Below are positions 29,465-34,620 of a stretch of DNA of 64,000 nucleotides, piece after piece (the stretch's first letter is position 1; each line of letters opens with the position of its first letter). This stretch comes from Paenibacillus sonchi. Its GTDB lineage: Bacteria; Bacillota; Bacilli; Paenibacillales; Paenibacillaceae. Under the pieces are notes generated by a model. It was given only the letters and a program-made list of their open reading frames with translations. It had not been told where the DNA came from and made no database searches. The stretch lies in NCBI RefSeq assembly GCF_016772475.1, contig NZ_CP068595.1, positions 620,001-684,000 on the forward strand, read 5' to 3'. A program made the translations under genes and the position numbers.

Positions 29465-30802
29465 TCAGGCAAGCGGAGTCTGCGCCAGCAGCCTTTTAAT
29501 GGAGCGGTTGGCTTCATGCAGCACTGTCACCTTGTCTACCGTCTTCAGCAGCCCTTTATCCATGAGGATTTCACCGTCAGCAATCGTTGTTTCCACATCG
29601 GCCCGGGTTGCCGAATAGACAATGCGGGAGATCGGATCTACATCGAAGGAAGGGAAGGTATGGAAGTTGTAGAGATTCAGGATAGCCAGGTCTGCTTTTT
29701 TGCCAACCTCTATGCTGCCGATTTGTTCCTCCATACCCACAGCCTTGGCTCCGCCGATGGTCGCCATCCGGAAGACACTTTTCGCATCCATCGTGGTCGG
29801 CCCGTGCTGCGGCTTCTGAATCATGGCGGCCAGCCGCATTTCATTGAACATATCCAGGTTGTTGTTGCACGGCGCCCCGTCTGCGCCCAGGCTGAGATGA
29901 ATGTGGTCATGGAGCATGCCCGGTGTATCCGCGATACCGGAAGCCAGCTTCAGATTAGAGCCCGGGCAATGGCTGACATGAACCCCGCGGTCACGCAGGA
30001 TGCGCCGTTCCTCCTCATCCAGCCAGACGCAATGCGCCAGAATCAGGCGTTCGTTCGCCAGCCCCAGATGATCCAGATAGACAATGTTCCGCATCCCGGT
30101 CATAGCCTGAACGATCTCAATTTCCCCCAGGTTCTCGGAAGCATGGGTATGCACCTTGACTCCGTAGCGCTCCGACAGGTCACGCACCTCCCGCAGCAGC
30201 GGCTCAGTGCAGGAGATTACAAAACGCGGCGAAAACGCATATTGAATCCGGCCGTTTCCATACCCGTTCCATTTTTCCAGCAAATCCACGCTCTCCTGGA
30301 GCGAAGCTGCTGTCTCCTCCTGCAGGGCCACAGGCGCATCCGCATTCTTCTGGTCCATCATCACCTTGCCGGACAAGGCGCGGATACCGCTCTTGGCGAG
30401 TGCCTGAAACGCAAAATCCGTATGATGCACTGTCTCCATATCCACAATTGTCGTGGTACCGCTGGAAATGAGCTCACCGATACCCAGCATAGCGGAATAA
30501 TACAGCGACTCCTCGTCATGCGCCGCTTCAAGCGGCCAAATCCGCTTGCGCAGCCAGTCCATCAGCTCCAGGTCATCCCCCTTGCCCCGGAACAGCGTCT
30601 GGCAGAGATGAATATGAGTCTGCACAAAACCGGGAATGACAGTACGGTTCCTGGCGTCGATCACCCGCTCATCTCCCTGCGCAACGAGGCCGCTGCCGAT
30701 CTCGGCAATCAGATTGTCCCTGATGCGGATATCTCCATAGATGATTTCCTCCTGCTTGTTCATTGTGATAATCTCTGCATTCCGGATCAGGATATTTGCC
30801 AT
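29465..30802 (-). CDS. Amidohydrolase-family deaminase, probably acting on a purine or purine nucleoside
   Basis: Metal-dependent hydrolase of 445 residues in the ATZ/TRZ, MtaD and 8-oxoguanine deaminase branch. Metal and catalytic residues are in THIHLCQT (HxH), KVHTHASEN, LAHCVWLDE and LGADGAPCNN. LELMDWLRKRIWPLEAA is the substrate-loop segment typical of deaminases of this branch. The start at 30802 is chosen from AAGGGGG nine bases upstream; another ATG two codons earlier is too close to it. Relatives are annotated as 5'-deoxyadenosine, S-adenosylhomocysteine, guanine or 8-oxoguanine deaminases. A guanine-class riboswitch precedes the gene, which favours guanine or a related purine as substrate. 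The substrate assignment is inference. Confidence 0.88.
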   Translation of the reverse strand: MANILIRNAEIITMNKQEEIIYGDIRIRDNLIAEIGSGLVAQGDERVIDARNRTVIPGFVQTHIHLCQTLFRGKGDDLELMDWLRKRIWPLEAAHDEESLYYSAMLGIGELISSGTTTIVDMETVHHTDFAFQALAKSGIRALSGKVMMDQKNADAPVALQEETAASLQESVDLLEKWNGYGNGRIQYAFSPRFVISCTEPLLREVRDLSERYGVKVHTHASENLGEIEIVQAMTGMRNIVYLDHLGLANERLILAHCVWLDEEERRILRDRGVHVSHCPGSNLKLASGIADTPGMLHDHIHLSLGADGAPCNNNLDMFNEMRLAAMIQKPQHGPTTMDAKSVFRMATIGGAKAVGMEEQIGSIEVGKKADLAILNLYNFHTFPSFDVDPISRIVYSATRADVETTIADGEILMDKGLLKTVDKVTVLHEANRSIKRLLAQTPLA

Positions 30803-30845
30803 CTTCATCGTCCCCCTTGTCTTGTGCATCCATAACCGCCTTAAC

Positions 30846-30945
30846 ACAAAAAGGCCACAAAAATATGCCTGGGCATATTTTCGTAGCCGGAAATTTACGG
30901 TTCCCGGTAGAGACCCTTAAACCAATTATTAAGGATATACGAAAA
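30846..30945 (-). ncRNA. Purine riboswitch, guanine class, with overlapping terminator
   Basis: On the minus strand the aptamer occupies 30945-30878. P1 is TTTTCGTA pairing with TACGAAAA, P2 is CCTTAA with TTAAGG, and P3 is CCGG with CCGG around AACCGTAAATTT. The conserved joining sequence GTCTCTACC (J2/3) and the loop CCGTAAA are present. The specificity position in GGCTACG is C (complement of 30886), the guanine type. J1/2 is one base shorter than in the classic xpt aptamer. Directly after it, CTACGAAAATATGCC (30886-30872) can pair with GGCATATTTTTGTGG (30869-30855) and is followed by CCTTTTT, an intrinsic terminator that uses the 3' strand of P1. Ligand binding should therefore prevent termination. 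Confidence 0.85.
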
Positions 30946-30978
30946 GAAGGATTATTCAATTGCTTGCTGAATAACCCT

Positions 30979-31008
30979 ATCATAAATGAATGACAAGTTT
31001 AGTGTCAA
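30979..31008 (-). promoter_or_regulatory. Promoter of the riboswitch-amidohydrolase transcript
   Basis: On the minus strand a perfect -35 TTGACA (31008-31003) and -10 TATGAT (30984-30979) are separated by 18 bases. The start of transcription would be about 25-30 bases before the riboswitch P1 stem. The 150 bases beyond it, up to the GNAT gene, are AT-rich and show nothing else. Confidence 0.8.
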
Positions 31009-34149: not shown

Positions 34150-34204
34150 TACGCGCATCCCCAGATGCAATGGTGATCCGCGTGAGCCGCAGTTGTTGAG
34201 GGGC

Positions 34205-34620
34205 GCGCTGGCGTGGGACGGGCGAAACAACGGCAGTTTTGCCGTTGTTTTAGGGGCCGCGAGCACGGGACGAGCGAAACAACGGCACTTTTGCCGTTGT
34301 TGAGGGGCCGCGGGCGCGGGACGGGCGAAACAACGGCAGTTTTGCCGTTGTTTTAGGGGCCGCGAGCACGGGACGAGCGAAACAACGGCAAAAGTGCCGT
34401 TGTTGAGGGGCCGCGGGCGCGGGACGGGCGAAACAACGGCAGTTTTGCCGTTGTTGAGGGGCCGCGGGCGCGGGACGGGCGAAACAACGGCACTTTTGCC
34501 GTTGTTGAGGGGCCGCGGGCGCGGGACGGGTGAAACAACGGCAGTTTTGCCGTTGTTGAGGGGCGCGGGCGCGGGACGGGCGAAACAACGGCACTTTTGC
34601 CGTTGTTGAGGGGCCGCTGA
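34205..34620. repeat. Eight 51-52-bp repeats with AACGGCA/TGCCGTT hairpins, one with flipped loop
   Basis: Units of the form GGGACGGGCGAAACAACGGC, then a T-rich loop, GCCGTTGTT, GAGGGGCCGCGGGCGC repeat from 34215 onwards. Units alternate between loops GTTTT and CTTTT. The unit around 34376-34405 reads AACGGCAAAAGTGCCGTT, the reverse complement of the common AACGGCACTTTTGCCGTT, so its hairpin is inverted relative to the others. The array lies between the GNAT gene and the terminator of the second glycosylation operon. Both strands keep long frames open because most units are 51 bases, but no translation signals exist. Confidence 0.92.

Follow-up and report, generated by a model that had tools for sequence, protein, structure and literature searches.

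A purine riboswitch in the 64,000-nucleotide stretch of Paenibacillus sonchi DNA analyzed here (the window) probably turns on transcription of the deaminase gene behind it (an ON switch), an aptamer with a guanine-I pocket mediating guanine-induced deamination of guanine, with ligand, direction of control and enzyme substrate all predicted. The aptamer, the terminator, the bases common to both, their conservation and the active-site motifs of the enzyme are present in the sequences described below. Taken together, these features point to a real and conserved guanine-I-type riboswitch, probably wired for predicted ON control of a probable guanine deaminase.

When all 64,000 bases were compared with 4,227 Rfam families at the gathering threshold, one RNA family was found in the window, RF00167 (Purine), at 30962-30864 on the minus strand. 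The match covered the full model (1-102) and scored 70.7 bits against a gathering threshold of 37 (E 1.9e-10). The complete purine-aptamer core described in an earlier note on this DNA (J2/3 GTCTCTAC, L3 CCGTAAA, C74, and the P1, P2, and P3 pairings) was found as described, and the Infernal search with the Rfam purine model proposed there returned this match. Among guanine-I features, the window has C74, U51, U47, U22, and an 8-nt J2/3 without insertions. U22, U47, U51, and C74, which we take to be the ligand contacts by the numbering of the xpt structure, are all kept, and the pocket bases are, as far as sequence can tell, those of the original guanine class. The window departs from the consensus at three points: L2 has 6 nt (not 7), P3 has 6 bp (not 7), and nucleotide 73 is G for A. 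A73 is conserved in the Rfam consensus and characterizes guanine-I; however, it does not appear to be a strict criterion, as G73 also occurred in 6 of 47 other sampled switches. J1/2, previously thought to be one base short, shows no shortening in the Infernal alignment, reading UAU where the consensus has UAA; the gap had been misplaced, and the missing bases lie in L2 and P3. Because the 6-nt L2 is conserved in relatives, recurring in 70 of the 73 pattern-parsed related aptamers (of 75), the sequencing indel once suspected was dismissed.

Downstream, a 16-bp terminator (30888-30873 with 30868-30853) has a CCAG loop followed by UUUUU and a folding energy of -23.0 kcal/mol alone. The P1 3' strand does serve as terminator 5' arm, as the earlier note had it, though the length of 14-15 bp given there was too short. 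This arm takes up the entire P1 3' strand and J3/1, including the specificity base C74, so that the pbuE-like arrangement, a P1 3' strand within the terminator 5' arm and then a U tract, is found in the window. Folds of the full leader with and without the aptamer constraint, calculated with an energy model that leaves out ligand, pseudoknot, and kinetics, gave -52.4 kcal/mol for the lowest-energy state, which has the terminator, and -44.9 kcal/mol with P1, P2, and P3 forced, favoring the terminator state by 7.5 kcal/mol. In growing transcripts folded in 4-nt steps, P1 was there at 100 to 120 nt and lost at 124 nt. No separate antiterminator was found in the leader fold. Since aptamer P1 and terminator use the same bases, both states cannot coexist; hence, ligand binding should block termination and raise read-through, which is the predicted direction of control in the cell.

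In the proposed mechanism, polymerase would transcribe past P1 when ligand is absent, J3/1 and the P1 3' strand would be drawn into the 16-bp terminator, and the hairpin would stop transcription ahead of the deaminase gene. With guanine bound (hypoxanthine or a similar purine is also possible), the shared bases would stay in P1 and the three-way junction, the terminator would be blocked, and the deaminase would be made. Guanine excess would in this way induce its own removal through conversion to xanthine. The ATG at 30802-30800 appears better placed as the gene start than the GTG at 30847 of the longest open frame because of the AAGGGGG at 30818-30812. Elsewhere in the window, a tandem array in which a 51-bp unit (103 bp as a double unit) is repeated about eight times occupies 34192-34617, between genes that by eye are nucleotidyltransferase-like and acetyltransferase-like.

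Table 1. Features of the riboswitch and deaminase locus in the window
Feature	Coordinates	Strand	Basis
-35 element TTGACA, 18-bp spacer	31003..31008	-	consensus match only
-10 element TATGAT	30979..30984	-	consensus match only
5' hairpin of predicted leader, 12 bp	30948..30978	-	computed fold
Purine aptamer match RF00167, model 1-102, flanks included	30864..30962	-	Rfam covariance model, 70.7 bits
P1 5' strand	30938..30945	-	Rfam model alignment
J1/2, UAU, full length	30935..30937	-	Rfam model alignment
P2 5' strand; innermost pair U-U in window	30928..30934	-	covariation in relatives
L2, 6 nt (consensus minus one); its GG opposite CC of L3	30922..30927	-	model alignment
P2 3' strand	30915..30921	-	covariation in relatives
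J2/3 GUCUCUAC, 8 nt like guanine-I, U47 and U51 kept	30907..30914	-	model alignment
P3 and L3 (CCGUAAA), 6-bp stem	30888..30906	-	model alignment, covariation in relatives
J3/1: G73 (consensus A73) and C74 (specificity base)	30886..30887	-	comparison with relatives
P1 3' strand, common to aptamer and terminator	30878..30885	-	leader fold
Terminator 5' arm: last P3 base, J3/1, P1 3' strand and on	30873..30888	-	computed fold
Terminator 3' arm	30853..30868	-	computed fold
Terminator U tract, UUUUU	30848..30852	-	sequence
Shine-Dalgarno AAGGGGG	30812..30818	-	sequence
Deaminase gene, 445 aa, NF005557 (named 5'-deoxyadenosine deaminase)	29465..30802	-	NCBIfam match and motifs
Deaminase motifs: H63xH65xxQ68; GKVMMD 145-150; SPR193FVISC; H220xxE223	within 29465..30802	-	sequence

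To follow the switch across genomes, we used a covariance model (R1) of 24 rows, the window and 23 relatives. Among the best 80 of 381 relatives from a genome scan (the named loci), R1 matched within about 370 bases upstream of the deaminase gene in 75, 23 of which had also gone into building the model; the link to a purine-type deaminase that had been drawn from the window alone is thereby kept. An initial regular-expression count (59 of 110 loci) was too low, its pattern having required TCTACC, and is superseded by the covariance model. R1-positive named loci were mostly from Paenibacillus, with others from Niallia, Metabacillus, Domibacillus, Lysinibacillus, and Bacillus; no R1 match preceded the deaminase in five of the 80 (L098, L099, L107, L142, and L145). 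Each of the 30 genus loci (L037-L066) had a match, the window being among them and some coming from strains also present in the named set; at 20 loci of TIGR02967 guanine deaminases, neither R1 nor Rfam gave any (0/20 each). A search of the class recovered the same RNA with the same kind of enzyme, identified by eye and by Pfam, in genome G464 (L229, L249). No purine genes were found among 12 neighboring genes of nine orthologues (four in L249, one each in eight), nor among the deaminase's neighbors within the window.

R1 also detects ordinary purine switches: at E 0.001 it had a match in 291 of the 398 genomes of the class, and where a permease, purE-like, or oxidoreductase gene followed, switches scored 68 to 73 bits, the weakest deaminase-linked match scoring 70.1. 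Because these scores overlap, the set is defined by position before a deaminase gene together with shared features. The P1/terminator overlap, scored where a U run within 95 nt had a hairpin containing at least 6 of the 8 P1 3' bases, was present in 75 of 75 deaminase-linked switches; under the same rule it occurred, among sampled purine switches, in 7 of 41 whose J3/1 is AC and in 2 of 7 whose J3/1 is GC, the window being one of these two. This comparison sample, 56 loci from the window's genome and its relatives, included 8 unparsed and was skewed to high scorers. A different rule, applied first, had given 72 of 73, one relative standing at 2 of 8. The ON logic that the earlier note had predicted from a direct P1/terminator conflict is consistent with this overlap in all relatives scored. 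J3/1 was GC in 72 of 73 parsed relatives versus 6 of 47 other sampled purine switches (window left out), and J1/2 was UAU in 44 and UAA in 29 of the 73. In a 75-row alignment, which was fitted to the model and hence tilted towards structure, 11 of 21 pairs had changes on both sides, a count reached in 0 of 500 shuffles. Across 60 distinct terminators, the base opposite nucleotide 73 tracked it (G-C 50, G-U 3, A-U 1, unpaired 6), and in the two relatives with A73 (L141 and L144) the opposite base was U. In our reading, the terminator gains more from G73 than the pocket does, and the shared J3/1 suggests how terminator needs may shape a base beside the ligand pocket.

For the enzyme, the NCBIfam equivalog NF005557 (5'-deoxyadenosine deaminase) was the best model by far, at 711.6 bits over a cut-off of 522. 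Scores under the respective cut-offs came from the N-ethylammeline chlorohydrolase model (399.7 bits), 8-oxoguanine deaminase NF006055 (280.3 versus 532), and guanine deaminase TIGR02967 (258.5 versus 375.4), the first of these exceeding TIGR02967; the MTA/SAH deaminase model NF012037, at 239.1 bits, scored lower than guanine deaminase. The active-site motifs give a different picture from the database name, the window deaminase carrying those of solved guanine deaminases. HxHxxQ, GKVxMD, and PRFxxSC occurred together in all 80 orthologues and all 20 TIGR02967 proteins, and the human guanine deaminase 2uz9, of the same amidohydrolase type, has all three and shares the HxSE motif as well. In MTA/SAH deaminase 4f0r, PHAPYT replaces PRFxxSC, and 3e0l, presumably a loop-redesigned human enzyme with altered specificity, is without PRFxxSC. 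HxHxxQ by itself appears unspecific: of 25 8-oxoguanine deaminases above cut-off, 23 had it and none had either GKVxMD or PRFxxSC.

No TIGR02967 match was found in the P. sonchi genome at 1e-90, nor any guanine-deaminase model among its four cytidine-deaminase-fold genes at 1e-15; these best matched TadA, ComEB, cytidine deaminase, and RibD, two of the matches (ComEB and RibD) falling under cut-off. The RibD-like frame (C1:6770080-6770307, L255) has only 104 aa, which may reflect a broken ribD or an assembly fault at this site. The deaminase family was found in 67 of 100 genus genomes and was near-complementary to TIGR02967 (both 10, this only 57, TIGR02967 only 26, neither 7; Fisher p 5.6e-10, kinship ignored). 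A pucD-family xanthine dehydrogenase large subunit was not found in the genome; hence, xanthine would be salvaged or exported, not oxidized by a pucD-family enzyme. Guanine to xanthine is the probable activity, and the guanine substrate proposed in the earlier note gains support from the motifs and from the lack of a second guanine deaminase in our searches of the genome. The recurrence of one sensor-enzyme pair in most related genes examined likewise suggests a guanine deaminase, not the database-named activity. PMC8360030 describes a rice amidohydrolase that is SAH-deaminase-like and deaminates guanine, 2'-deoxyadenosine less, and 5'-deoxyadenosine not.

The guanine ON switch could also govern a true 5'-deoxyadenosine- or adenosine-type deaminase, guanine merely signaling purine surplus. 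The NF005557 name and the best solved relative by sequence, the MTA/SAH deaminase 4f0r (219.6 bits; guanine deaminase 6ohb, 158.6), weigh for such an enzyme; both also count against our main reading, as do the TIGR02967 score below cut-off, the 10 genus genomes with both deaminases, and the 7 with neither. We nevertheless consider it unlikely, given that L148, the closest paralogue of the deaminase in this genome and under every cut-off shown for it, has PHAPYT and none of the three motifs that all 80 orthologues carry, that no second guanine deaminase was found in the genome, and that the MTA/SAH model trails the guanine deaminase model. The likelihoods attached to the alternatives overlap, as this one shares the guanine ON switch. 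Far more remote is the idea of an 8-oxoguanine deaminase gene behind an aptamer of the published 8-oxoguanine class. A PNAS study of 2023 reportedly places that class in Paenibacillaceae as ON switches with an amidohydrolase deaminase as target, a likeness to our element in each respect. In 296 genomes of the order, 25 genes exceeded the 8-oxoguanine deaminase cut-off; a purine switch preceded 18 by pattern, all 18 with J2/3 GCUCUAC and J3/1 AC (a separate check of 20 of the 25 loci gave 13 purine matches). These switches (L158, L161-L177) are probably the published class. Compared through them, the window element was rejected as a member, since their J2/3 is one base shorter and their J3/1 is AC, versus GUCUCUAC and GC. 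The window enzyme also falls well short of the NF006055 cut-off, and PCSPFS, present in 24 of the 25 true 8-oxoguanine deaminases, was in none of the 80 orthologues.

Alternatively, G73, the frequent UAU in J1/2, and the short L2 might mark a distinct variant class with its pocket retuned to a different purine, one degraded by the deaminase. The GC in J3/1, near-constant in relatives and infrequent in other purine switches, favors such a class, and a G in place of the usually conserved A beside the pocket could shift specificity; yet the ligand contacts are all kept, J1/2 varies, and nucleotide 73 pairs in the terminator, facing U in both A73 cases, so that terminator strength can explain G73. 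We regard a retuned pocket as improbable. That the element is an OFF switch or a degenerate, nonfunctional relic is very hard to credit, even though guanine-I switches commonly lower expression, according to PMC9295807: P1 and terminator are mutually exclusive in 75 of 75 relatives, the leader fold has no separate antiterminator, and conservation is strong, with covariation. A guanine-induced guanine deaminase is hence our preferred reading. If true, it would provide a conserved case of a guanine-I-type aptamer wired to turn a gene on, with one metabolite repressing synthesis and salvage and inducing breakdown, and an enzyme family filed under another name would gain a substrate that can be tested. 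With considerable doubt, one might go further and propose a separate subclass over several Bacillales genera, its J3/1 (G73-C74) common to pocket and terminator, its ligand perhaps not plain guanine, and the "5'-deoxyadenosine deaminase" family an unrecognized guanine or modified-guanine deaminase outside TIGR02967. The parts are of known kinds; in a literature search with most subscription journals outside it, neither the combination, the enzyme reassignment, nor any link between this deaminase and a purine switch with this fold was found.

Other purine switches were also observed. The P. sonchi genome has them before purE-like (L001) and xpt-like (L002) genes, labeled by eye, and both are presumably OFF as in Bacillus subtilis. 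A CGTATATCC...GTCTCTACA...GGCTACGA-type aptamer precedes an FAD-dependent oxidoreductase gene at L004, L235-L237, L243, L245, and L246; the L235 oxidoreductase matched PF07992 and PF21688, and the others were labeled by eye. At L004 (P. sonchi, C1:2358354-2358453), 6 of 8 P1 3' bases lie in a terminator arm. In genome G683 (L248, C34:19500-38500), a purine-breakdown cluster is flanked by two guanine-type switches, ON-like by eye, the first before pucE-, xdhC-, mocA-, and pucD-like genes and an adenine deaminase, the second before a xanthine/uracil-type permease; the arrangement fits purine breakdown, and the xanthine-dehydrogenase matches were under cut-off.

The window element resembles guanine-I riboswitches of the xpt-pbuX type (RF00167) in aptamer fold, J2/3 length, U22, U47, U51, and C74, and the GG/CC pairing between L2 and L3. 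It differs from them in being predicted ON rather than OFF, in G73 for A73, in its 6-nt L2 and 6-bp P3, and in its target, a deaminase, whereas guanine-I targets act in synthesis, salvage, or uptake. In the pbuE adenine ON riboswitch, which has U74 and controls an efflux pump, the P1 3' strand likewise lies within the terminator 5' arm; the window shares this arrangement, but has C74 and a deaminase. Contrary to what had been supposed, an ON guanine switch has precedents: PMC9295807 describes guanine-II switches in Paenibacillus as predicted ON, carrying insertions in both J2/3 and J3/1 and standing mostly before phosphoribosyltransferase genes, and xanthine-II and 2'-dG-III, on the same scaffold, as also predicted ON; it further announces an 8-oxoguanine class and puts the preference of guanine-I aptamers for guanine over hypoxanthine and xanthine at only about 10-fold. 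The P. sonchi genome itself has a guanine-II-like switch, its J3/1 bearing an insertion, before a gene that by eye is phosphoribosyltransferase-like (L005, C1:437390-437492), an arrangement as described there for Paenibacillus. The window element is, like guanine-II, guanine-type, predicted ON, and from Paenibacillus. Unlike guanine-II and xanthine-II, as characterized in PMC9295807, it has a J2/3 of 8 nt and a J3/1 of 2 nt without insertions, and it carries U51 in place of the G51 of xanthine-II. Xanthine-I (NMT1; PMC7373994) is an unrelated RNA fold that senses xanthine and uric acid and acts as an OFF switch, in contrast to the purine fold and predicted ON control of the window element.
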